A stretch of DNA of 64,000 nucleotides, from positions 124,001-188,000 of the forward strand of contig NZ_FXTP01000001.1 of the NCBI RefSeq assembly GCF_900182705.1, written 5' to 3'. This stretch comes from Gracilimonas mengyeensis (GTDB lineage Bacteria > Bacteroidota > Rhodothermia > Balneolales > Balneolaceae). The notes beneath the pieces were generated by a model. It was not told where the DNA came from. It was given only the letters and a program-made list of their open reading frames with translations, and made no database searches. Position 1 is the first letter of the stretch. Every line of letters starts with the position of its first letter. The translations under genes were made by a program, and so were the position numbers. This document shows, piece after piece, positions 17,774 to 30,220 of this stretch.

Positions 17774-18586
17774 TTATTCAACAATGGTAAAAGTAGTTCG
17801 TGCGGTATCGCTCACCATACCGGCATTATCGATGGCGAAGTAGAGGATGTCGTAAGTTTCAGGCCGGTTTCCACTGTAAATGGGAAAATTGATGGTATAG
17901 ACAGAGTCATTTTTTGCTGAATCATCATAGGTATCACCATCATCAAAGAGTTCAAAAGGTGAATTACTGGCTTCCCCTGTGCGCCGACTTATAAGGCGTA
18001 AGAAAACACCGTAAATGGTAGAATCTCCATCTACATCGATAACTGTCGCTTTGAAGTAAGCTTTTTTGCTTCCGGATTCTGGTCTTTGGAATTCTGATTC
18101 ATTTTCTGCGGATAAAATCTTTGGCGGGGCACTGGAGAAACCATTTACCCTTAATTCGGTTTGGGCATAGTTTCCATACCCGGAAGAATCATTAACAAAC
18201 ACATTTACTACATAATCCCAAATATTGGTGGTAGTAGTTCTAAATTGAACGGGTTGAGAGGTAGAGAAAGAGCCGGTTTCTCCCATTTTTAGTTGACCAC
18301 TTGCTCCGGTTTTAACTGGAAAGCGGTCTTTTGGTTTTGTGGAAATGTTGTATTGAAGCACATCCGTAGATGCTAAATTCTGTACATCAAACTGCAGCTT
18401 CAGGGTGATAGTGGTGTCTTTAAAACCATCGGCATTTTCAGTAAAGGATACGATGGCAGGCGATACGCTCAGGTTGCTTACGCCGGGGGCATCGTCGAGT
18501 AATGAGCGTGGAGAGGTGGTTGAATCACATCCCAAAAAAGCAATGCTTACCGCACTTAGCAAAATGGCCCCGAAAAATTTATTCAT
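17774..18586 (-). CDS. Lipoprotein with beta-sandwich repeats (paralogue of 15145-15942), first gene of the minus-strand run
   Basis: The 270-residue product has a lipobox Cys at residue 20 (AFLGC-DS) followed by STTSPRSLLDDAPG, nearly the same linker as the paralogue (STTSPQNPLEETPA). Its C-terminal part repeats the paralogue's pattern, YFKATVIDVDGDSTIYGVFLRL and FELFDDGDTYDDSAKNDSVYTINFPI, and ends TFTIVE where the paralogue ends TFSIRE. It is the promoter-proximal gene of the eleven-gene minus-strand run and is divergent from the trp operon. The shared 132-base divergent region also holds the trp promoter. No specific function can be assigned. Confidence 0.78.
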   Translation of the reverse strand: MNKFFGAILLSAVSIAFLGCDSTTSPRSLLDDAPGVSNLSVSPAIVSFTENADGFKDTTITLKLQFDVQNLASTDVLQYNISTKPKDRFPVKTGASGQLKMGETGSFSTSQPVQFRTTTTNIWDYVVNVFVNDSSGYGNYAQTELRVNGFSSAPPKILSAENESEFQRPESGSKKAYFKATVIDVDGDSTIYGVFLRLISRRTGEASNSPFELFDDGDTYDDSAKNDSVYTINFPIYSGNRPETYDILYFAIDNAGMVSDTARTTFTIVE

Positions 18587-18680
18587 TGAAAATAGTTTAT
18601 GATCAGATTCAGCATTTATAATAGCATAACGAGAACTTAGAACCTATACGAACTAAAAATCAATAAATTGTGCAGGAATA

Positions 18681-18709
18681 TTGCATGTACTTTCCGAGCC
18701 TGTTATATT
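18681..18709 (+). promoter_or_regulatory. Candidate trp operon promoter
   Basis: A -35-like ttgcat (18681-18686) and a -10-like tatatt (18704-18709) are separated by 17 bases, close to the sigma-70 consensus. Transcription would start near 18716, only about 3 bases before the leader ATG at 18719, so the leader peptide would be read from a leaderless or nearly leaderless transcript. No Shine-Dalgarno sequence is visible upstream of that ATG, which fits. A promoter further upstream cannot be excluded. Confidence 0.5.
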
Positions 18710-18718
18710 CGGCGCGTT

Positions 18719-18793
18719 ATGAAAACTAAAAATGCTCAAATCAACAATTGGTGGTGGCCTGTTATTTCAAATAACAGTGGGCCCGCTACGTAA
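18719..18793 (+). CDS. trpL: trp leader peptide (24 codons, three consecutive Trp codons)
   Basis: ATG at 18719 opens a 24-codon frame ending in TAA at 18791-18793. The peptide begins MKTKNAQINN, continues with three tandem tryptophans (TGG TGG TGG, 18749-18757), then PVISNNSGPAT. Three Trp codons in a 24-codon frame immediately before trpE are very unlikely by chance, and the frame sits directly upstream of a terminator and an alternative hairpin (see 18760-18854). The ribosome would stall on these codons when charged tRNA-Trp is scarce. It is too short for standard gene finders. Evidence is from sequence logic; translation has not been shown. Confidence 0.87.
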   Translation: MKTKNAQINNWWWPVISNNSGPAT

Positions 18794-18854
18794 TTGAGCG
18801 ACGGACAAAAGAATGTTAAAAAACCCACTGTTCATCCGGATAGTGGGTTTTTTT
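18760..18854 (+). promoter_or_regulatory. trp operon transcription attenuator (alternative RNA hairpins)
   Basis: Three mutually exclusive pairings can be read. Hairpin 1:2 pairs tgttatt (18760-18766) with aataaca (18770-18776). The antiterminator 2:3 pairs aacagtggg (18773-18781) with cccactgtt (18824-18832), an exact 9-bp match. The terminator 3:4 pairs aaacccact (18821-18829) with agtgggttt (18842-18850), followed by a T run to 18854. Strand 18773-18776 is shared by 1:2 and 2:3, and strand 18824-18829 by 2:3 and 3:4. A ribosome stalled on the Trp codons (18749-18757) covers strand 1 and frees strand 2 for the antiterminator, so trp genes are read. With ample Trp the terminator forms. This is the logic of the E. 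coli trp attenuator. Confidence 0.87.
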
Positions 18855-18940
18855 GTTTCTATAGATTGGTTATTGGTTAGTTGAAAATGGTTTTCGAAAT
18901 CACAATTAATCTTTCTAATCTGGAAGCATGAAAAAGAATG

Positions 18941-19029
18941 CTGGTTCCAACGCAGAGTGTAGGAACCAGTGGTGAAGTTCGAGAATATGAAAGACAGGAC
19001 CTCGCTCCACACGCTCTGCGTTGGAGCGA
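18941..19029. repeat. REPIN-like pair of inverted palindromes before trpE
   Basis: The first palindrome pairs ctggttcc (18941-18948) with ggaaccag (18962-18969). The second pairs tcgctcca (19002-19009) with tggagcga (19022-19029). Their loop-side cores are inverted copies of each other: aacgcagagtgt in the first, and acgctctgcgtt in the second. This is the arrangement of a REP doublet. The pair lies in the untranslated stretch between the attenuator and trpE and ends 28 bases before the trpE ATG. It may stabilise the mRNA or be only a genomic parasite. Confidence 0.6.
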
Positions 19030-19056
19030 ATAGTAGGTTTATGGATAACTAACCAA

Positions 19057-20517
19057 ATGAATAAAGAACAGTTTTTAGCACTTAGTAAAGAATATACAGC
19101 CATCCCGGTGTACCGGCGGCTATTGGCGGATGTACTTACCCCGGTTTCCCTGTTTATGAATATCCGCGAAGGTGCGGAATACCCCTTTCTGCTGGAATCG
19201 GTTGAAGGAGGGGAGCAACTGGCCCGGTATTCTTTTATCGGGCGCAATCCTTACCAAATTCTGAAATTTGACGGTGAGGATACAACGCTTTCTGCAAATG
19301 GAGAAACTGAACAGGTAGAGGTTCCATATTTCGACAAACTTAAGGAACTCACCACTGCTTATTCCGAGCCCACGCTTCCAGAATTACCCAGGTTGAAAGG
19401 CGGTGCCGTAGGATTTTCGGCCTATGATACTTTTCGCTTGGTGGAAGATTTGCCGGATGTGCCGGACGATGACCTTCAGCTCCCCGAAGCCATCTGGGCG
19501 TTTTATGATCAGATATTTGCTTTCGATCATGTGAAGCACCAGGTAGTGCTGATCAAAACTGTGTTTGTGGAAGAGGAAGATGATCTGGATGAAGCTTACC
19601 AAAAGGCACAATCCAGTCTGGATGAAATGGAGGAGGCGGCTTTGAGTTCTAACTATGAAAACCGTCCCTTTAGCATTGATACGGAATCGCTGTCCAGCAA
19701 TATGGAGCAGGATTATTTTGAAAAGATTGTAGAAAAGGGAAAGGAGTACATCTACGAAGGCGACATCTTCCAGGTAGTGCTATCCCAGCGCTTTGAAGCT
19801 GATATGAGTGGCGATCCATTCATGCTCTACCGTGCGTTACGAATGGTGAATCCATCCCCGTATTTATTCTATTTAGATTTTGAGGATTTCCAACTCGTCG
19901 GTTCCTCACCGGAAGTGCTGGTGCGCGTGCAGGAAGGCGAAACACGGGTGCTGCCCATTGCCGGTACACGTCCACGAGGCAAAACCCATGAAGAGGATTT
20001 AGCACTGGAAGAAGATCTTAAAAACGATCCCAAGGAAGTAGCCGAACACATTATGCTGGTTGATTTGGGACGGAATGATCTCTCACGTGTATGCAAAGCC
20101 GGTACCGTAAAAATGGAACGAAATCAGGTGATAGAGCGCTATTCGCACGTGATGCATATTGTCAGCGATGTGGTGGGGGAATTGCGGGAGGATCAAACCT
20201 CGGTGGATGCCCTGATGCAATGCTTTCCCGCTGGTACCGTAAGCGGCGCTCCAAAAATCCGGGCGATGGAAATTATTGACGAACTAGAACCTTCTAAACG
20301 CGGCGTATATGCCGGGGCGGTGGGCTATTTCGATTTTTCCGGTAATATGGACACCTGTATTGCCATCCGAACCATGGTGGTTACGGATAACAAAGCCTAC
20401 ATTCAGGCCGGTGCGGGTATTGTGGCCGACAGCGATCCCACCAAAGAATTTGAAGAAACACAAAACAAAGCAGGCGCGCTGATTCAAGCGCTAAGCGTAG
20501 CTTTAGATATTCAATAA
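19057..20517 (+). CDS. trpE: Anthranilate synthase component I
   Basis: TrpE converts chorismate to anthranilate using ammonia delivered by TrpG, the first committed step of tryptophan synthesis. The frame opens at TTG 19021, but the ATG at 19057 ([14 protein letters not shown]) fits the family start, giving 486 residues. The N-terminal part contains the [18 protein letters not shown] feedback-binding segment (res ~45-62), and the chorismate-binding domain shows [16 protein letters not shown], the PIAGTRPRG loop and [10 protein letters not shown] near the C-terminus. It is the first structural gene behind the attenuator. Trp feedback inhibition is likely from the conserved LLES element. Assignment is firm. 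Confidence 0.95.
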
Positions 20518-20608
20518 ATGTTAACCACGGAGGACTCAGAGTTTCGCGGAGTATTTTCTGTAGCGCGATCCTCTGAAAAATCTAATCAACACTCGATCAA
20601 TCAAATTA

Positions 20609-21595
20609 ATGAGTAGCAAAAAGACCATACTTTCAGGAATTCAGCCTTCGGGCAAATTGCATATAGGAAACTATTTTGGCGCGATCCGTCAGCACATAGC
20701 GATGCAGGAGGAGGGAGAGGCTTTTTACTTCATCGCCAACTATCATTCCCTGACTTCTCTTAATGATGGCGAAAAACTTCGGGAAAACACCATTGACGTC
20801 ACGCTTGATTACCTGGCGCTTGGCTTAGATCCCAAGAAGGCGACTTTCTTTGCCCAGTCGGATGTGCCCCAGGTGACCGAACTCGCTTGGATATTGGGCA
20901 CATTGACTCCGGTTTCACTGATGGAGAAAGGCGTTTCCTATAAAGATAAAATTGCGGCGGGATTGAGTCCTAATATCGGCCTTTTTACCTATCCAATTTT
21001 ACAAGCTGCCGATATCCTGATTTATCACTCCGATATAGTGCCGGTGGGTGAAGATCAAAAGCAAAATATTGAGATTACCCGTGACCTGGCCGGGAAATTC
21101 AACTATGCTTACGAAGGCGAATACTTGAAAATCCCCGAAGAACACATTGTGAAATCTGTAGCCGTGGTACCGGGTATCGACGGACGAAAGATGAGCAAAA
21201 GCTACGACAACACCATCAATATTTTTGCTGAGGGCAAGCAGCTGAAGAAACGGGTGATGTCTATTGAGACGGATTCCACACCACTGGATGATCCCAAAGA
21301 TCCCGAAAACGATAATGTGTTTGCCCTAATCAAGCTGTTTGCGGATAAAGAAAAGCAGGATGAAATTGCAGAGAAATATCGTGCAGGCGGATACGGCTAC
21401 GGTCATGCCAAAAAGGAATTATTAGGCATGATTGAAGATTATTTTGGTGAAGCTCGTGAAAAGCGGCGTGAGATGGCCAAAGATTTGGATTACGTGCACG
21501 ATGTACTCCGCGAAGGCGGAAAGAAAGCCCGGGAGCGTGCGGAAGAGGTGATGGAGCCTATAAGAGAAGTGGCGGGCATAGTGAATCACAGATGA
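20609..21595 (+). CDS. trpS: Tryptophanyl-tRNA synthetase
   Basis: This class I synthetase charges tRNA-Trp. The 328-residue product begins with the family pattern ILSGIQPSGKLHIGNYFGA, where HIGN (18-21) is the HIGH motif, and carries GRKMSKSYDNT (KMSKS at about residues 195-199). Length is normal for bacterial TrpRS. It lies inside the trp operon, 91 bases after trpE and 139 bases before trpG. That placement puts the charging enzyme under the same attenuator that senses charged tRNA-Trp. Assignment is firm; the regulatory consequence is inferred. Confidence 0.95.
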   Translation: MSSKKTILSGIQPSGKLHIGNYFGAIRQHIAMQEEGEAFYFIANYHSLTSLNDGEKLRENTIDVTLDYLALGLDPKKATFFAQSDVPQVTELAWILGTLTPVSLMEKGVSYKDKIAAGLSPNIGLFTYPILQAADILIYHSDIVPVGEDQKQNIEITRDLAGKFNYAYEGEYLKIPEEHIVKSVAVVPGIDGRKMSKSYDNTINIFAEGKQLKKRVMSIETDSTPLDDPKDPENDNVFALIKLFADKEKQDEIAEKYRAGGYGYGHAKKELLGMIEDYFGEAREKRREMAKDLDYVHDVLREGGKKARERAEEVMEPIREVAGIVNHR

Positions 21596-21608
21596 TAAGG
21601 ATTACACT

Positions 21609-21646
21609 GATTTCACAGATTTCTTATCAAGAAAATCTGTGAAATC
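21609..21646 (+). repeat. 14-bp stem hairpin between trpS and trpG
   Basis: gatttcacagattt (21609-21622) is exactly complementary to aaatctgtgaaatc (21633-21646), with a 10-base loop. No T run follows, so it is not an intrinsic terminator. Words of the same kind (aatcagcgaaatctgtgat) recur at 21721-21740 and near 50886-50917, marking a dispersed intergenic repeat. It could alter message stability between trpS and trpG. Confidence 0.5.
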
Positions 21647-21734
21647 CCTAAATCCGCTAATCCGTGGTTCCAACTCCTTATAAACACAATATCCGGCATT
21701 TAACTAAGAACAATCAACGAAATCAGCGAAATCT

Positions 21735-22298
21735 GTGATCCTTATTATTGACAACTACGACTCCTTCACCTACAACCTGGTGCATCTGGTTGCAGCAGAG
21801 ACGGATGATTACAAAGTGATTCGCAACGACGCGATGACCCTGGATGAAATACGGGCATTAAAGCCGACAAAAATTTTGATTTCTCCCGGGCCAGGCCGAC
21901 CGCATGAAGCCGGTATCACCGAAGAAATTATCCGGGAGCTGGGAAAGGAAACTCCGGTTTTAGGTGTTTGCCTCGGACATCAGGCCATTGGCGAAGTGTT
22001 TGGAGCTAAAGTGGTACATGCCCCAAAGTTGATGCACGGCAAGGTTTCTAAAGTGTCTCACAACGGGCAGTTTATTTTTAAGGATGTGGAGAAGGATTTC
22101 ACGGCCACGCGGTATCACTCCCTGGTGCTGGATCCGGATACCATTCCCGAAGTACTGGAAATTACAGCTCATTCCGATGATGGAGTGGTGCAGGGTGTTC
22201 GGCATAAAGAGTTCCCGATTCAGGGAATACAATTTCACCCTGAAAGCATTTTGACTACGGAAGGCCCCAAGTTAATCTCAAACTGGTTACGACAATAA
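21735..22298 (+). CDS. trpG: Anthranilate synthase component II (glutamine amidotransferase)
   Basis: TrpG hydrolyses glutamine and passes ammonia to TrpE. The 187-residue product starts at GTG (21735) with MILIIDNYDSFTYNLVHL. It has the class I amidotransferase triad: Cys79 in GVCLGHQ, and His168 and Glu170 in QFHPESI. The PGPG oxyanion segment is at 51-54 (SPGPGRPHEAG). In some bacteria the same subunit also serves PabB in folate synthesis. It is 7 bases upstream of trpD, so the two are translationally close. Assignment is firm. Confidence 0.95.
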   Translation: MILIIDNYDSFTYNLVHLVAAETDDYKVIRNDAMTLDEIRALKPTKILISPGPGRPHEAGITEEIIRELGKETPVLGVCLGHQAIGEVFGAKVVHAPKLMHGKVSKVSHNGQFIFKDVEKDFTATRYHSLVLDPDTIPEVLEITAHSDDGVVQGVRHKEFPIQGIQFHPESILTTEGPKLISNWLRQ

Positions 22299-22305
22299 CA
22301 CACTC

Positions 22306-23346
22306 ATGGACTTTAAAGAAATACTGAACAAACTCTCTTTTTCTGAAGATCTTACCAAAATTGAAGCCGAGTCTGCGATGAACCTGATTATGTCGGGGGA
22401 TATTTCGGATCCGCAAATTGCGGCTTTTATTACCGCTATGCGCTTGAAAGGTGAAAGTGTGGAAGAACTCACCGCTTTTGTAAAAGTGATGCGCAGTAAA
22501 GCGGTAAAAGTAGAAGTAAATGTGGATGGGGCTATCGATTTAGTAGGCACCGGCGGCGATCAGTCCGGGACTTTCAACATCTCAACCTCGGCCTCTTTTA
22601 TCACAGCGGCGGCCGGTGTACCAGTTATCAAGCACGGAAACCGAAGTGCTTCAAGCAAGTGCGGCAGTGCTGATGTGTTGGAACATCTCGGCGCAGCTAT
22701 AGAATTAGGTAAGGAACAGGTTGAGCAAGTATATAAAGAAGTAGGCATGGCCTTTATGTTTGCCCCGATGTTTCACCCGGCTATGAAGCATGTGATGCCC
22801 GCCCGGCGCGAAGTTGGTTTTCGAACCTTCTTCAATATTTTAGGTCCCATGGTGAATCCGGCTGGCGTACAGCGCTATGTAATCGGTGCTTTTAATAAAG
22901 AGACCGCTGAGAAAATGGTGCATATTTTAGCCAATCTTGGTACCGAATTCGCGTATACATTTAACGCTCATGATGGGTTGGATGAAGTGAGCCTGACTTC
23001 TCAATCCGAAATTTTTGAGTTGAAAGATAACCTGGTTTCCACCTCCATTGTGTTTGACCCGGAATCCATTGGGTTTGAGAAAGTAGAAATGAAGGCACTG
23101 ATGGGCGGAGGAAAAGAAGAAAATGCAGAAATCCTAACAAATATTATGGCCAATAAAGCCACAGATGCGCAGAAAGGCATTGCTTTATTGAATGCCGCTT
23201 TTGCAATACAGGCCTCGGGCAAAGTTAAGACGCTGGAAGAAGGCAAAGAACTGGCTGAAGAAGCCCTGGAATCAGGCAAGGCACGTAAGTTATTCAACGA
23301 CTTTGTGGATGCCACCAACGATGCTATGGGTACTTTTAAGTTTTGA
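22306..23346 (+). CDS. trpD: Anthranilate phosphoribosyltransferase
   Basis: TrpD transfers the phosphoribosyl group of PRPP to anthranilate. The 346-residue product has the helical N-terminal domain, the PRPP-binding loop DLVGTGGDQSGTFNIST (res ~79-95), the anthranilate-site segment HGNRSASSKCGSADVLEHLG (~107-126) and the conserved RREVGFRTFFNILGPMVNPA (~167-186). Metal-site acidic residues lie around the MGGGKEENA segment near residue 267. Length is normal. It follows trpG closely and is separated from trpC by a 643-base repeat-filled spacer. Assignment is firm. Confidence 0.95.
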   Translation: MDFKEILNKLSFSEDLTKIEAESAMNLIMSGDISDPQIAAFITAMRLKGESVEELTAFVKVMRSKAVKVEVNVDGAIDLVGTGGDQSGTFNISTSASFITAAAGVPVIKHGNRSASSKCGSADVLEHLGAAIELGKEQVEQVYKEVGMAFMFAPMFHPAMKHVMPARREVGFRTFFNILGPMVNPAGVQRYVIGAFNKETAEKMVHILANLGTEFAYTFNAHDGLDEVSLTSQSEIFELKDNLVSTSIVFDPESIGFEKVEMKALMGGGKEENAEILTNIMANKATDAQKGIALLNAAFAIQASGKVKTLEEGKELAEEALESGKARKLFNDFVDATNDAMGTFKF

Positions 23347-23989
23347 GTGGTGAGTGCTTAGTTTTGAGTTTGTTGAAGCTTTATTACTTGCTAAAGAAAA
23401 CGATGTTTTTGTTTACTAAGGAACGGAATAGAACACGGATGACGCAGATTGAGTAGATAATCGCTGAAATATGTTGAATTACTAAAAAGCATAATCCCGA
23501 AGGGATGAAACATAAATAGCCCTGGGTTTTAACCCGGGGAAAAGAACGGAAATGGAAGAACCTCCGCCCGGCTGGTGTTTTAGACTAATTGGCTTCCGGA
23601 GGTTGGGCAACAAGGTTTAACTATGATACTTGTGATGAATTTGATGAACGGTGATTTGGTATTGGACATCATGCCAGTTGATTATTGAATAGAAAGCAGG
23701 AACCTTGCAACGTGAACGAATAGGTTTCAAGCGGACGATTAAATAGAAATTATTGTTTGAAACGTACAGATAGAAATCCCTCATAGATGACAGAATATAG
23801 CCCACGACTTCAGTCGTGGGTAAAATGAAGAGATCAAAGAACCTCCGCCCGAATGGCATTTTAGACCAGAGGGTTACCGGAGGTTGGGCAATAATATCAC
23901 AAATGATATATCGAGAAGCTGGAGCTTCTCAGCACGCGTTACCAAGCCAGAGCTTGGTAACGAGAAACAAATATTGAGTTAATGTAAAC
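23347..23989. repeat. Repeat-filled spacer between trpD and trpC
   Basis: No gene is seen. Three structured blocks are present. Unit A (23492-23609) starts taatcccgaaggg, contains the hairpin ccctgggttttaacccggg and ends in cctccg...cggaggttgggcaa. Unit B (23795-23891) has cccacgacttcagtcgtggg in place of that hairpin, then the same cctccgccc...cggaggttgggcaa end. Next come two compact hairpins, gagaagct/agcttctc (23913-23930) and cgttaccaagc/gcttggtaacg (23937-23962), the latter 27 bases before the trpC ATG. Unit A recurs at 25797-25914. The structure is typical of REP-type elements moved in trans. Confidence 0.65.
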
Positions 23990-24811
23990 ATGAGCAACAT
24001 CTTAGAAAAAATAACCGAGAAGACTTCTGAAGATTTGGTGAAGCGTAAGCAGAAGGTTTCTTTCAATGACTTCAATTCCTTTGAGGGATTTGAGAAAGAG
24101 CGAATTTCATTCCAAGAAGCACTGGATGGAACCGATCAGGTTTCCATCATTTCAGAAGTCAAGAAAGCCTCGCCGTCGAAAGGCATCATCCGGCCTGATT
24201 TTAATCCCGTAGATATCGCCTTGCGATACGAGGAGGGAGGCGCTTCGGCTATTTCTGTACTTACCGACCAACCTTTTTTCCAGGGAGAACTGAAATACTT
24301 GGAAGCTATCTCAAAACGGGTTCAGCTGCCTCTTTTGCGAAAGGATTTCATCATCGATCCCTACCAAATAAAAGAAGCCCGGGCTCATGGAGCAGATGCT
24401 GTGCTCATCATCGTGGCTATCACCGAAGGCAAGCAACTGGAAGAGCTGCTGCATGCGGCCAAAGAGTTTGGGTTGGACGCGTTGGTTGAATGTTACGATC
24501 AAACCGACTTTGACCGTGTGGACTTTAATTTGGTAGATATCCTTGGCGTAAATAACAGAGATTTAAAGAATTTTGAGGTGGATGTGCACCGCGGAATCTC
24601 TATCTTGCAACAAGCTCCCGAAGAAACCGTGCTGGTTTCTGAAAGCGGACTTTCTTCAGGCGAAGATCTGGCATTATTGAAAAAAGAAGGGATTCATTCT
24701 GCTTTGATTGGCGAATATTTTATGCGTCAGCAGGATCCAGGACAGGCGGTGAAAGATTTGCTGGAGCAAACGGAAGAGGCTTACGAACAATTGATGAAAG
24801 CTTCTTCATAA
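23990..24811 (+). CDS. trpC: Indole-3-glycerol phosphate synthase
   Basis: TrpC closes the indole ring, turning CdRP into indole-3-glycerol phosphate. The 273-residue TIM barrel shows the catalytic lysine segment ISEVKKASPSKG (res ~53-64), LLRKDFIIDPYQ (~113-124) with the second lysine, LVECYDQTD, ILGVNNRDLKNF (~184-195) and the phosphate-binding VSESGLSS (~216-223). Length is normal. It lies after a repeat-rich spacer and before trpF, and is a stand-alone enzyme rather than a TrpCF fusion. Assignment is firm. Confidence 0.95.
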   Translation: MSNILEKITEKTSEDLVKRKQKVSFNDFNSFEGFEKERISFQEALDGTDQVSIISEVKKASPSKGIIRPDFNPVDIALRYEEGGASAISVLTDQPFFQGELKYLEAISKRVQLPLLRKDFIIDPYQIKEARAHGADAVLIIVAITEGKQLEELLHAAKEFGLDALVECYDQTDFDRVDFNLVDILGVNNRDLKNFEVDVHRGISILQQAPEETVLVSESGLSSGEDLALLKKEGIHSALIGEYFMRQQDPGQAVKDLLEQTEEAYEQLMKASS

Positions 24812-24998
24812 TAACACTGTCAGATTAGAATGGAAAAGTTTTTAGTTGTGAATTTTTAGTTTTGAGTTTATTGATCCTGAATTTAACGAAATAGTAAATA
24901 CTGACTTTGGTTAAAACTGAATGGAATGTTGTTGAGACGGGTATTTGCTGACTACGAACACGCAACCTATAACACGAGACACGAAACCCATACTTCGA

Positions 24999-25631
24999 AT
25001 GAAAATTAAAATTTGCGGAATTACGAACCTTGAAGATGCCCGTTTTGCGGCGGGAGCCCTTGTGGATTACCTGGGCTTTATCTTTTATGATAAAAGCCCG
25101 CGTTACATTGAACCTGGAGAAGCCGGGGCTATCATCAACTGGATTGAAGGACCGGAAAAGGTTGGTGTGTTTGTAAATCAACCTCTGGATGATGTAAACC
25201 GCATTGCCAAAGAAACCGGGCTTGACTATGTGCAGCTGCACGGGGATGAATCTCCCGAATACTGCAGCCTGGTTGAAAAATCCGTGATAAAAGTGATTCA
25301 TATTGAAGAAGAATCGGTAGAATATTTGTTGAAACACCAGATAGAACAATATGCAGAGGTTGCCGACTATCTTTTGTTTGATACGAAAATTAATGGCCTC
25401 TGGGGCGGAACCGGTAAAAGTTTTGATTGGTCGATGATCACGGATTTGGATATCGAGATTCCGTTTTTTCTATCCGGTGGATTGAGTGCTGATAACATTA
25501 AGGAAGCTATCGAAACCGTTCAGCCTTTTGCTATTGATGTATCAAGCAGCCTGGAGAAAGAGCCCGGGCTCAAAGACTTTGGGAAAATTGAGGATTTTAT
25601 GGATGAAATCCGTGACTTGGAGCTGGAGTAG
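24999..25631 (+). CDS. trpF: Phosphoribosylanthranilate isomerase
   Basis: TrpF performs the Amadori rearrangement of PRA to CdRP. The frame is open from 24945, but the family begins MKIKICGITNLEDA, so I take the ATG at 24999 (210 residues). Cys6 in KICGIT is the catalytic base residue. DYVQLHGDESPEYC and LLFDTKINGLWGGTGKSFDW carry the phosphate site and the catalytic Asp, followed by FFLSGGLSADNI and AIDVSSSLEKEPG. Length is normal. It follows trpC after a 187-base spacer. Assignment is firm; the start is chosen on homology. Confidence 0.94.
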   Translation: MKIKICGITNLEDARFAAGALVDYLGFIFYDKSPRYIEPGEAGAIINWIEGPEKVGVFVNQPLDDVNRIAKETGLDYVQLHGDESPEYCSLVEKSVIKVIHIEEESVEYLLKHQIEQYAEVADYLLFDTKINGLWGGTGKSFDWSMITDLDIEIPFFLSGGLSADNIKEAIETVQPFAIDVSSSLEKEPGLKDFGKIEDFMDEIRDLELE

Positions 25632-26155
25632 TTATTAGTTCGGAGTGTTTAGTTTTGAGTTTGGTAATAAATTATTCCTCATGGAAAATAGTATCTGTGG
25701 TTACAATAGAATGGAACCCCGAATAAATCGGGACAGGCGCGGATGACGCTGATTTAGCGGGTTATTGCTGAGATATTTTGAAATTTTGATAAGATTAAAT
25801 CCCGAAGGGATGAAACCTGGATAGCCCCGGGTTTTAAGCCGGGGAAAAGAACTGAAATGAAAGAACCTCCGCCCGGAAGATATTTTGAGGCCAAATGGTT
25901 AGCGGAGGTTGGAGAATTTCGTTGAACTGTGATGCCCGTGATGTATTAGATAGGTTGTGAAGTTTTTAAACATTATCACAGTGTATCAGTTAAATCGCAC
26001 CCAATCACAGTTAACAACCGTTGAAAAATATAAAAGACTTTGTGACAATCGAATTAAAATGGATAACAAGGATTATGTTGATACTAACACAGTAGCATTT
26101 TTTCCACGTAAAATTGTGGATCAGCATGATATCTGTTCCCTAACAATGTTTATTT
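25632..26155. repeat. Repeat-filled spacer between trpF and trpB
   Basis: No convincing gene is present; a 71-codon frame (25957-26172) overlaps trpB and has no family features. Positions 25797-25914 are a second copy of unit A from the trpD-trpC spacer: same atcccgaagggatgaaac start, the hairpin cccgggttttaagccggg and the cctccgcccgg...cggaggttgg end. Positions 25975-26014 match 27420-27459, after trpB, at 34 of 40 bases (atcacagtg...cccaatcacagttaa). The spacer is therefore assembled from at least two repeat families. Confidence 0.6.
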
Positions 26156-27376
26156 ATGAACACACAGACTAAAGAAAAGAAGTATACATTTCCTGACAGC
26201 CGGGGATATTTTGGTAATTTTGGAGGCAAATTTGTCCCGGAAATACTCATTCCTGCTATCGAAGAGCTGGAAAAAGAATTTTTGAAAGCCAAGAAAGATC
26301 CTGAATTCAATACCGAACTTGCTGAACTGCTGGATGAATATGTGGGACGTCCTACCAAATTGACTTATGCTAACCGTCTTACGGAGCATTATGGCAAAGC
26401 TAAAATCTACCTGAAACGGGAAGATTTATGCCATACCGGGGCCCATAAAATCAACAATGCGATCGGGCAGGTTTTGCTGGCCCGACGCATGGGGAAGAAG
26501 CGTATTATCGCTGAAACAGGTGCCGGTCAGCATGGCGTGGCAACAGCTACAGCCTGTGCCAAGTTTGGGCTGGATTGTATCGTGTATATGGGTGAAGAGG
26601 ACATGGTGCGCCAAAAACTGAATGTGGACCGGATGGAACTCATGGGAGCAGAAGTCCGAAGCGTTACAAGCGGCTCCAAAACCCTTAAAGATGCAACTAA
26701 CGAAGCTATTCGTGACTGGGTTACCAATGTGGATACTACCTTTTATATCATTGGTTCTGTTGTGGGGCCACATCCTTATCCGATGATGGTGCGTCACTTC
26801 CATCAGATAATTGGCAATGAGGCCAAAGAACAAATTCAGAAGGCCGAAGGGCGAAATCCGGATTACATCGTAGCTTGTGTAGGCGGAGGTTCTAACGCCA
26901 TAGGTTTATTCTATCCTTTCATTGATGATGAGGAAGTGAAGATCATAGGAGTAGAAGCGGCTGGTTTTGGTGTGGATTCAGGTCAGACGGCCGCCACTAT
27001 TACCAAAGGCACTCCCGGCATTTTACATGGTTCGTTAAGCTATTTGTTACAAAGCAATGAGGGACAAATTGAGCTGGCTCATTCCATTAGTGCCGGACTG
27101 GATTACCCCGGGGTGGGGCCAGAGCATTCTCACCTCAAAGATTTAGGCCGTGTACAATATTACGCCGTTACGGATAAGGAAGCCATGGATGCCGTGAAAC
27201 TTCTATCCAAAACGGAAGGGATTATACCTGCCCTTGAAACGGCACATGCTTTTGCCCAACTGGAAAAATTAATGCCTGAAACTTCTGAAGATGAAATTGT
27301 GATCCTGAATCTTTCTGGCCGGGGAGATAAGGACATGGGAACTATTTCTGAATATATCCGGGATGAGGAAGGGTGA
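26156..27376 (+). CDS. trpB: Tryptophan synthase beta subunit
   Basis: TrpB condenses indole with serine using PLP. The 406-residue product has the TrpB1-type start [20 protein letters not shown], the PLP lysine Lys98 in HTGAHKINN, the phosphate loop [10 protein letters not shown] (res ~242-251) and [10 protein letters not shown]. The C-terminus holds [13 protein letters not shown]. Length is normal for the canonical TrpB that pairs with TrpA. Unusually, trpA does not follow directly: a toxin-antitoxin pair occupies the next kilobase. Assignment is firm. Confidence 0.96.
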
Positions 27377-27602
27377 TCTCTGTGATAGTTTTGATGTACT
27401 GCGATGTTTGAAAAAAATGATCACAGTGCATCACATTAATCATACCCAATCACAGTTAAAACTGAAACGCGAACTACATGGATGCTCAGATAATCGCCGA
27501 TAAAAGCTTTGTAATCTGAGTCTCAGAATGTTCTTTTGAGGATTACTTTTGTATCCAAGATCAATACTTCTCTCGAATCTAATTGATTAAATAACTACTT
27601 TA

Positions 27603-27630
27603 CACGTGTGATATAAAATTTTATACACGT
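27603..27630. promoter_or_regulatory. Palindromic operator-like site at the antitoxin start
   Basis: A central ataaaattttat palindrome (27613-27624) is flanked by cgtgt (27605-27609) and acacg (27625-27629), with a 3-base offset on the left. The site ends at the antitoxin ATG (27631). Toxin-antitoxin modules are commonly autoregulated by the antitoxin binding such an inverted repeat. A -7-like tacttttg (27544-27551) upstream may be the matching promoter element. This is read from symmetry and position only. Confidence 0.5.
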
Positions 27631-27879
27631 ATGAATAAAAAGCTCACATTAACTATTGAAGAAGATATAGTAGAAGAGGCCAAAAAGGTTGCTTCCAGCA
27701 AAGGAAGGAGTCTGTCCAGTATGGTTGAAGACTATTTACGAGTAATCACCAAGAATGAAACAGAGACTAAAACTTCTTCCGGAAGGGTAAAAAAGTTGAA
27801 GGGAATTCTGAAAGTTGACAGCGATTTTGATTATCAGAAAATTTTGAAGGAAGAAATAAACAAGAAACACCATGGATAA
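27631..27879 (+). CDS. DUF6364-like antitoxin (ribbon-helix-helix type) of a PIN toxin
   Basis: The 82-residue product starts MNKKLTLTIEEDIVEEAKKVA and continues SSKGRSLSSMVEDYLRVI, the pattern of DUF6364/RHH antitoxins that pair with PIN toxins. The basic C-terminal half (SSGRVKKLKG) would wrap and block the toxin. It overlaps the toxin gene by 8 bases, the usual layout for such pairs. A palindrome just before the start suggests autoregulation. It interrupts the trp operon between trpB and trpA. Confidence 0.82.
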   Translation: MNKKLTLTIEEDIVEEAKKVASSKGRSLSSMVEDYLRVITKNETETKTSSGRVKKLKGILKVDSDFDYQKILKEEINKKHHG

Positions 27880-28294
27880 GGTTTTTCTTGATACGGATGT
27901 ACTTATTGATTTTCTGATCGACCGGGAACCTTTTGCTACCTATGCGGCAGAAATTATGTCTCTTGCAGATAAAGGTTCTATCCAGGTGTCTGTATCTGCC
28001 TTAAGTATTAATAATATTCACTATATCATTCGAAAGTATTTAAGCGAAAAGAAAACCAGAGATATATTGGGCGACTTGTTGGCAATGATTGAGATCTTAA
28101 AGGTAGATAAACAGGATATTCAACAAGCTCTGGTTAGTCCTTTTAAAGATTTTGAAGACGCTATTCAGCACAGTGTAGCTACTCAGGAAGGAGAGTTGGA
28201 AGTCATCATCACCAGAAACATAAAAGATTATAAAAAAGCAGCCATTCAGGTATTTTCACCGGAACAATATTTGAAATTGCGCTCACTCAGTTAA
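27872..28294 (+). CDS. PIN-domain toxin (VapC-like ribonuclease)
   Basis: The 140-residue PIN-domain protein has the first acidic residue in VFLDTDVLIDFL (Asp7/Asp9), a middle acidic pair in DFEDAIQHSVA and the final segment EVIITRNIKDYKKA. These match the Mg-dependent RNase active site of VapC-type toxins that cut tRNA or rRNA. It overlaps its antitoxin gene and ends 15 bases before trpA, so trpA must be reached by read-through from trpB or from the module's own promoter. Family assignment is good; RNA target unknown. Confidence 0.83.
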   Translation: MDKVFLDTDVLIDFLIDREPFATYAAEIMSLADKGSIQVSVSALSINNIHYIIRKYLSEKKTRDILGDLLAMIEILKVDKQDIQQALVSPFKDFEDAIQHSVATQEGELEVIITRNIKDYKKAAIQVFSPEQYLKLRSLS

Positions 28295-28309
28295 AATTTA
28301 CCAAATAGC

Positions 28310-29107
28310 ATGAACCGAATACAACAGACTTTTGCTAACAAAAAAGCCGATGAAAAGCTGATGAGCTTATTCATTACGGCGGGCTTTCCTGATCTTGAAT
28401 CAACCGTGGACCTGGTTTTGGGTTTTGAAGAAAACGGGGCGGATATGATTGAATTGGGCATGCCCTTTAGTGATCCGCTGGCGGATGGGCCCACTATTCA
28501 GTACTCCAGTGATATAGCCATACAGAACGGCATCACCATGAACAAGATTTTTGAGATGGTGGAAGCGATCCGCGAAAAATCAGAGATTCCGATCATCCTG
28601 ATGGGCTATATGAATCCCGTGCTGCATTACGGGGTAGAAAAGTTTGCGCAAAAAGCGGCGGAGGTTGGTGTGGATGGCCTCATCATCCCCGATATTCCTT
28701 TGGAAGAAGATGGTTTGATCAAACATCACGCCGAAAAAAATAAGCTGGATGTAATTCATCTGGTAGCACCCAACACTTCGGATGCCCGTATGAAACTGGC
28801 CGACGAAAACTCCCAAGGATTTGTATATTGCGTTTCGGTTACTGGTGTGACGGGTGCTCGTGATGGGGACGAAGTTTCCCAATCCGTTGCCCGGTTTATA
28901 GAGAGGGTAAACACTCATGTAACAGAAAACCCGGTGATGGTAGGTTTTGGGATTAAGTCGCACCAGGATGCAGTGTCTATTGCAGCTAACACGGACGGCT
29001 TTATTGTGGGCAGTGCCTTAATTGACACCATCAAAAATCATTATCCTCAAGAGGGATGGCAATCCAAATTGTTTTCCTTCGTTCATGCACTGAAACATGG
29101 AAATTAA
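28310..29107 (+). CDS. trpA: Tryptophan synthase alpha subunit
   Basis: TrpA cleaves indole-3-glycerol phosphate to indole and glyceraldehyde 3-phosphate; indole passes to TrpB through the subunit tunnel. The 265-residue TIM barrel has the catalytic Glu48 in MIELGMPFSDPLADGP and the catalytic Asp in LIIPDIPLEE (~res 127). YCVSVTGVTGARDG is the mobile loop and VGFGIKSHQDA is the phosphate site. Length is normal. The gene is 15 bases after the PIN toxin and 9 bases before a DUF4837 lipoprotein gene. Assignment is firm. Confidence 0.95.
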   Translation: MNRIQQTFANKKADEKLMSLFITAGFPDLESTVDLVLGFEENGADMIELGMPFSDPLADGPTIQYSSDIAIQNGITMNKIFEMVEAIREKSEIPIILMGYMNPVLHYGVEKFAQKAAEVGVDGLIIPDIPLEEDGLIKHHAEKNKLDVIHLVAPNTSDARMKLADENSQGFVYCVSVTGVTGARDGDEVSQSVARFIERVNTHVTENPVMVGFGIKSHQDAVSIAANTDGFIVGSALIDTIKNHYPQEGWQSKLFSFVHALKHGN

Positions 29108-29116
29108 TCAGATATC

Positions 29117-30220
29117 ATGCGAACAATTTTAACGGCTACCATTCTTTCAATTTTTTCATTTCTACTCATTTCCTGCGATGGTGATTACCGTCCATTGGCG
29201 GAAGGCAACACCCGTGAAGTCGTTGTGGTGATGGATTCTACCAAATGGGAAAGCGCTACAGCTCAGGCCATTCGTGAGACCATTGGCCGGTATGTGTTTA
29301 CCGTTCCCAATGCCGAGCCTTACTACGATCTTCAATTTACCCAGATACGTTCTCAGTCTCATTTGGAGCGCTTACGTAAGCATAAAAACCTCATCTTTGC
29401 GGCGCCCATTGATGAAGAATCAAATGTTGGGCGACAGATTCGCGGGTTTTTGGATGAATCGGTTGAAGAGCGGGTAAAACAAGGAGAGAGCTTTGCCTTT
29501 CCGGTGATCGATCAATGGTACCGGGATCAGTACGTACTGATTTTAACCTCCACTTCGGATTCGACTTTGGCTCAGAAAATTCGAAATACGGAAAATTCCC
29601 TGCTTTCCAATATGCTGCAGAAAGAGCTTAAGCGCTGGGAATATTTTGTGTATGAGAAAAAAGAACAAACCAACCTGTCTGACTCCCTGTGGGAAGATCA
29701 TGGCTTTAAAGTTCGTTTCCAGCATGATTATGTGAAGAATGTGGATACCCTCAATTTTCAAACCTATCGAAGGTTTCTTCCCCAAAACGATCGCTGGATG
29801 TGGATTTGGTGGAAAAATGATGTAGAGGATATTTCTTTCCTGGATGACAACTGGATCAATACTACAAGGGATTCACTATCCAGAGAATACATCAAAGGCG
29901 CTCGAGACAGCATGTACGTAAATACCTATTATGGCAGGCCTGAAACTCGTCCCGTAATCACCGAATCATTCCAAAAAGGCCGGCTTTTGGCGTATGAAAC
30001 ACGTGGCACCTGGCATATGGTAAACGGAGCCATGGGCGGACCTTTTGTGAACTTTACCTATTACGATCCAGATACCAACCGTTTGTTTATGATTGAATAT
30101 TCACAGTTTGCGCCTTCTGTTCGCACCAAACTTCCGTTTGTACGGCAATTCCGCGCCATGGGCCGAACCTTTCAGTCTGATTCTACTTGGACGCCGGAAG
30201 AAAATGGGCTGCCTTCATAG
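29117..30220 (+). CDS. DUF4837 family lipoprotein
   Basis: The 367-residue product has a lipoprotein signal with the lipobox Cys at residue 20 (FLLISC-DGDYRP). The body matches the DUF4837 pattern as I recall it: EVVVVMDSTKWES near the start, RSQSHLERLRKHKNLIF, and the C-terminal ARGTWHMVNGAMGGPFVN-like segment (TRGTWHMVNGAMGGPF). Members are found in Bacteroidota and relatives and have no known function. It follows trpA by 9 bases and probably rides on the trp transcript. A link to tryptophan is not evident. Confidence 0.8.
   Translation: MRTILTATILSIFSFLLISCDGDYRPLAEGNTREVVVVMDSTKWESATAQAIRETIGRYVFTVPNAEPYYDLQFTQIRSQSHLERLRKHKNLIFAAPIDEESNVGRQIRGFLDESVEERVKQGESFAFPVIDQWYRDQYVLILTSTSDSTLAQKIRNTENSLLSNMLQKELKRWEYFVYEKKEQTNLSDSLWEDHGFKVRFQHDYVKNVDTLNFQTYRRFLPQNDRWMWIWWKNDVEDISFLDDNWINTTRDSLSREYIKGARDSMYVNTYYGRPETRPVITESFQKGRLLAYETRGTWHMVNGAMGGPFVNFTYYDPDTNRLFMIEYSQFAPSVRTKLPFVRQFRAMGRTFQSDSTWTPEENGLPS

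Follow-up and report, generated by a model that had tools for sequence, protein, structure and literature searches.

The tryptophan operon of Gracilimonas mengyeensis, a member of the Balneolaceae (order Balneolales) with a genome of 4.67 Mb, raises a basic question: how is its transcription controlled? TRAP-like attenuation, T-box elements and repression by TrpR are the usual alternatives at trp operons. In the window, the 64,000-nt stretch of DNA analysed here, it is very probable that a ribosome-mediated (leader-peptide) transcription attenuator controls trpE-S-G-D-C-F-B-A. A preliminary description of this DNA had given the same reading, which is now supported by conservation, by covariation between RNA strands 2 and 3 (2:3), and by the geometry obtained in masked folding. 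The trp attenuator is real and conserved; its sequence parts, their conservation, their covariation and their geometry are all matters of observation. It is almost certainly functional, to judge from these sequence features.

The operon, its leader and its promoter

The operon lies on the forward strand and consists of trpE (19057-20517; anthranilate synthase component I, Pfam PF04715 and PF00425), trpS (20609-21595; tryptophanyl-tRNA synthetase, TrpRS, PF00579), trpG (21735-22298; PF00117), trpD (22306-23346; PF00591/PF02885), trpC (23990-24811; PF00218), trpF (24999-25631; PF00697), trpB (26156-27376; PF00291) and trpA (28310-29107; PF00290). Thus, the Pfam assignments uphold the gene order of the preliminary description, which had, however, overlooked a pair of genes encoding DUF6364 and PIN_3 domains (VapBC-like; 27631-28294) inserted between trpB and trpA. 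Since this pair lies inside the operon, it would come under the trp attenuator; a search of named Balneolales loci turned up no homologue of it. The presence of trpS as the second gene would couple the level of TrpRS to charged tRNA-Trp, and trpS is directly 3' of trpE in every named Balneolales locus with enough sequence. The operon is also interspersed with repeats. A dispersed palindromic repeat (CTGGTTCCAACGCAGAGTGTAGGAACCAG, 18942-18972), of which the genome has nine or more other copies, is present between the terminator and trpE. The two long intergenic spaces, of 643 nt between trpD and trpC and of 524 nt between trpF and trpB, together contain a REP/MITE-like repeat of roughly 98 nt in three copies (ATAGCCC..GGGTTTTAACCCGGGG..CCTCCGCCCG; 23493-23894 and 25798-25918).

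As expected of an attenuator, a short open reading frame (ORF) with tandem Trp codons is found 5' of the trp biosynthetic genes. This leader ORF, trpL (18719-18793, forward strand), encodes MKTKNAQINNWWWPVISNNSGPAT in 24 codons plus a stop codon (18791-18793), and its three tandem Trp (TGG) codons, the putative sensor, lie at 18749-18757; the TGG columns rank among the most conserved in a MAFFT alignment (A1). The frame and its WWW motif are therefore as previously described, and on re-reading the coordinates given earlier for the leader, the hairpin, the antiterminator and the T-tailed terminator proved correct to the base. Two bases after the last Trp codon, as had been noted, the sequence TGTTATT (18760-18766) can pair with AATAACA (18770-18776) to form hairpin 1:2. 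Addition of C18759:G18777 brings this hairpin to 8 bp, so that strand 1 extends over 18759-18766 and the part of strand 2 that faces it over 18770-18777. A second part of strand 2, AACAGTGGG (18773-18781), is exactly complementary over 9 bp to strand 3, CCCACTGTT (18824-18832), just as the preliminary description had it, and a match of this kind arises in shuffled sequence with a P of about 2e-4. Strand 3 is common to this antiterminator and to the intrinsic terminator hairpin (3:4; 18818-18853, -20.3 kcal/mol), whose stem counts 16 pairs when A-U pairs are included; a T-rich tail then runs to about 18858. The T-tailed terminator that had been placed after the leader is thus borne out. It is positioned between the leader ORF and the first structural gene, where an attenuator requires it, and is the only strong intrinsic terminator found on the + strand within 18560-29400. 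Folding of the leader RNA as a whole is much stronger than that of shuffled sequences (z -4.98; none of 200 shuffles as strong).

The ATG of the leader is preceded by a Bacteroidota-type promoter, TTG-N20-TATATTCG. Its upstream element, TTG (18681-18683), is present 20 nt before a -7 box (18704-18711; consensus TAnnTTTG). A TTG-N19..21-TAnnTT sequence ends 2-9 nt 5' of the leader ATG in 47/47 leaders of the order, vs 0/613 control ATGs within the same trpE upstream regions. In a Flavobacterium study, the TAnnTTTG box is placed at -12 to -5 (PMC9723704). By this spacing, the promoter position predicts a transcription start at the leader ATG or up to about 4 nt from it. Given a promoter so near the ATG, the trpL ORF is probably leaderless. 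The same source gives leaderless mRNAs as only 5.5% of the Flavobacterium total (PMC9723704).

Conservation, covariation and ribosome position

Conservation was assessed in 50 trpE upstream regions gathered via TrpE, which comprise the window and regions from the genus, the family and four other families of the order. The closest named TrpE relatives are those of a Balneola-labelled MAG (93%) and Gracilimonas amylolytica (92%). A short ORF with WW, WWW, WRW or WWWW, followed by a T-tailed terminator, is present in 47 of the 50 regions, and the leader was found in all 29 usable named Balneolales loci, whose genomes partly overlap the 50-region set. Residues flanking the TGG runs vary across the order, while the runs themselves are kept. 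A strict test, requiring an ATG start, WWW, and a terminator within 500 nt, was passed by 39/50 real regions vs 0/5000 shuffles; it was passed by none of the 21 genomes of one large family in another class. In the relatives, this combination of leader and terminator is hardly seen outside the trp locus. The remaining three of the 50 regions (L034, L037 and L047), two from species of a single genus and the third from another genome, have lost their Trp codons, although the terminator ahead of trpE is retained. These are natural losses, useful as controls.

Because alignment A1 puts strand 2 out of register between clades, base pairs were counted in the register set by the 2:3 helix, with strand 3 swapped between sequences as the control; statistics were taken over 43 non-redundant leaders. 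In 35/43 leaders, the sequence upstream of the terminator matches the complement of strand 3 better than do its dinucleotide shuffles, and in 41/43 a leader's own strand 3 pairs better than does strand 3 from other sequences (Wilcoxon p 2e-8). Position 3 of strand 3 illustrates the constraint. It pairs with strand 2 as C-G (21) or T-A (18) and with strand 4 as G-C (19) or A-T (18), so that its G/A change is coordinated across strands 2, 3 and 4. Hence two features expected of an attenuator, an antiterminator that excludes the terminator and compensatory changes that preserve it, are both seen. The comparison of Trp codons and stems among Balneolaceae relatives that had been proposed earlier came out in favour of the attenuator, with 47/50 leaders and 2:3 covariation.

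The positions of the strands relative to the ribosome are conserved as well. Across the 47 leaders the stop codon ranges from W+12 to W+42; leaders with a late stop, among them most on the Gracilimonas side, have strand 2 starting at W+13 to W+21, whereas an early stop goes with a start at about W+6 to W+13. On average, 94% of strand 2 falls within the ribosomal footprint when the ribosome sits at the stop codon, and 0% when it sits at the first Trp codon. Over this set, then, a stalled ribosome masks strand 1 only and a stop-codon ribosome masks strand 2, which is the geometry of an attenuator. In masked folding, a ribosome was placed at the first Trp codon, at the stop or nowhere, with strand 4 not yet made. 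For this early transcript the mean probability of 2:3 is 0.89 when the ribosome is stalled, drops to 0 when it has reached the stop and is 0.36 (median 0.22) on RNA free of ribosomes, so that many relatives retain a substantial antiterminator fraction in this last case. The stalled early RNA of the window folds into 2:3 at -18.6 kcal/mol; for one relative (L053) the folding model gave no antiterminator. In the complete RNA the terminator prevails at equilibrium, stalled ribosome or not, and equilibrium folding of the whole leader is no demonstration of switching on its own. Since the terminator is preferred once strand 4 has been made, antitermination must be kinetic, set by the order of folding.

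These results bear on the reading that survives best among the alternatives, in which a constitutive or partly read-through terminator sets the level of the operon and the WWW ORF is incidental and non-regulatory. The strength of the terminator, and its retention in three relatives without a Trp leader, would fit such an arrangement. However, most relatives carry the WWW leader together with the terminator, vs 2/5000 shuffles of the order's trpE upstream regions with WWW alone, no terminator being required. The conserved relation between stop codon and strand 2, the 2:3 covariation, and the constant spacing between promoter and leader ATG likewise argue against it, and we consider it very unlikely.

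A model for the switch and other regulators

Transcription start, stalling, termination, read-through and the response to tryptophan are inferred from these parts, and tight coupling of transcription and translation in Bacteroidota is assumed. Transcription would begin at, or a few bases from, the leader ATG, and a ribosome would trail RNA polymerase on what is probably a leaderless message. With ample charged tRNA-Trp, the ribosome would clear the three Trp codons and arrive at the stop codon, where it would cover strand 2. Strand 3 would then be free, allowing 3:4 to form, and the hairpin would end transcription at about 18854-18860. With scarce charged tRNA-Trp, the ribosome would instead stall at the Trp codons, covering strand 1. 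Strand 2 could then pair with newly made strand 3 before strand 4 emerges, and polymerase would continue into trpE. Without translation, 1:2 could form, and termination would be the favoured outcome. As trpS belongs to the operon, the switch would lift the supply of tryptophan and the enzyme that charges its tRNA together.

Tryptophan within a leader peptide, and the Pro that follows WWW in many of the leaders, might also suggest an arrest like that of TnaC, in which the nascent peptide itself halts the ribosome when Trp is high. Yet tandem Trp codons ahead of a biosynthetic operon suit the sensing of starvation, the flanking residues are variable, unlike those of arrest peptides, and the downstream terminator is intrinsic rather than Rho-type; such an arrest is extremely unlikely here. 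That a TRAP-like or T-box attenuator or TrpR repression operates instead is extremely improbable too: although these are the alternatives generally known at trp operons, family or Rfam searches detected none of the three. Specifically, PF02081 (mtrB/TRAP) is absent from the genome, whereas the Bacillus subtilis positive control was detected; TrpR was not found in the genome by a family search that detected it in a positive-control genome; and the window contains no T-box match, nor any other Rfam regulatory element, at the gathering threshold. Control by the ribosome-mediated attenuator thus remains the preferred reading.

Distribution and relation to known systems

The preliminary description placed the element in Balneolota. 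It is indeed present there but is not peculiar to that group, and its distribution, scored directly on trpE upstream regions, is wider than had been supposed, with W-rich leaders and terminators in other classes. In the rest of the class, W-rich leaders are present in 41/67 regions, 40 of these with terminators, and in most sampled families; families f8 and f13 mostly do not have them. In another class, families f26 and f44 carry W-rich leaders and terminators in 13/13, with weak 2:3 support (3/13). A third group, with divergent TrpE, has both in 19/20 sampled genomes. The W-rich trp leader is absent from family f27 (21 regions) and from several other families. The sampled groups may be termed Ignavibacteria-like, Bacteroidia-like and Chlorobiaceae-like, names that we infer. 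The terminator arm used by strand 2 appears to differ between classes. In family f30 (divergent TrpE; L359-L362, L367 and L373), the partner of strand 2, as judged by eye, seems to be the terminator loop and 3' arm, not the 5' arm; for example, strand 2 GTCGTGA lies opposite TCACGAC in the loop/3' arm. These leaders therefore appear to use a different antiterminator topology. It is about as likely as not that classical trp attenuation is both ancestral to the wider Bacteroidota and nearly universal among them, from Balneolota and Rhodothermota to the Ignavibacteria-like and Bacteroidia-like groups. By this proposal it would be the main Trp-responsive control in the absence of TrpR and TRAP and would rely on leaderless ORFs placed behind a fixed Bacteroidota promoter; in Balneolales it would govern trpS together with the pathway.

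Leaders of other kinds were also seen. At three Hydrogenedentota loci (L106, L120 and L126), leaders such as MTECEQHKHWWWRWRRHVCFGRA end 68-82 nt before trpE with no obvious T-tailed hairpin, and these possibly act by translational attenuation. In the G. mengyeensis genome itself (L289, G000:C8), a His-rich leader ORF with 12 His codons, MIKNSLHITHHIHHDVHHAHRGHHHIDVH plus stop, is present 5' of hisG. Nine genus members gave a hisG hit; a search that also covered start codons other than ATG found His-rich hisG leaders in eight of them, the remaining locus (L298) lying at a contig edge, and in several other members of the order (set: L289, L290-L297, L299, L300, L301 and L305). A TTG-N20/21-TAnnTT promoter lies 11-13 nt before the His leader start in all eight genus members and in L299. 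Between stop codon and hisG, the genus leaders contain a G-poor (4-10% G), pyrimidine-rich tract in place of a T-tailed hairpin; it resembles a Rho loading region, which makes this a candidate Rho-dependent His attenuator. A leader with a run of Leu, Ile and Val codons before ilvB was not found in the genus.

These observations extend a textbook mechanism to a large phylum whose control of trp genes is poorly known and in which the curated Rfam model fails to detect the leaders. They make clear predictions, testable in marine bacteria that can be cultured: that read-through depends on Trp, that initiation is leaderless and that TrpRS is controlled together with the pathway, the last two being design features worth testing. 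A search for tandem cognate codons just 3' of a TTG-N20-TAnnTTTG promoter could reveal such switches across Bacteroidota; the His-rich hisG leader is a first example from such a promoter layout.

The literature searched holds nothing on trp attenuators in Balneolota or Rhodothermota. A 2004 study by Vitreschak reportedly mentions Bacteroidetes/Chlorobi. The preliminary statement that such attenuation had not been described in this phylum holds for Balneolota in the literature searched; the mechanism is known and the lineage is new, such switches being hardly described in the wider Bacteroidota. Nor is the mechanism limited to the proteobacteria, to which it had been ascribed, since it is also known from Actinobacteria (PMC1262725). 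In the same wide-sense phylum, a 2021 Flavobacterium study provides strong clues for leader-peptide attenuation 5' of amino-acid operons (PMC9723704). Like those described here, the Flavobacterium psychrophilum leaders encode peptides and lack Rfam hits; they belong to a different class, and the passage on them names no trp element and gives no covariation (PMC9723704).

The Corynebacterium and Streptomyces trp attenuators share a double or triple UGG leader, a GC-rich terminator with poly-U and a conserved complementary triple between strands, but differ in sequence and phylum; one Streptomyces has a trpS attenuator, which is separate, with trpS outside the trp operon (PMC1262725). In Sinorhizobium meliloti, trpL starts at the 5' end of the transcript, as a leaderless ORF, as is predicted for the Gracilimonas leader, and attenuation of trpE(G) operates without TrpR repression; there, however, the 14-aa peptide controls trpE(G) only (PMC7298713). 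Trans activities of peTrpL/rnTrpL are ascribed to the S. meliloti system (PMC7298713). Another close model is the E. coli, or enterobacterial, trp attenuator (RF00513), with which the Gracilimonas element has in common the tandem-Trp ORF, the 1:2/2:3/3:4 alternatives and a T-tailed terminator before trpE. The RF00513 Trp_leader model aligns to the window leader in register, although below its gathering score of 41 (22.3 bits, E 0.031), and gave no gathering-threshold match in 20 related loci; the element would therefore work like the classical attenuator while standing outside the curated family model. Compared with the enterobacterial attenuator, that of Gracilimonas has three Trp codons, a probably leaderless ORF on a Bacteroidota promoter, trpS within the operon it controls, and no TrpR in the genome.
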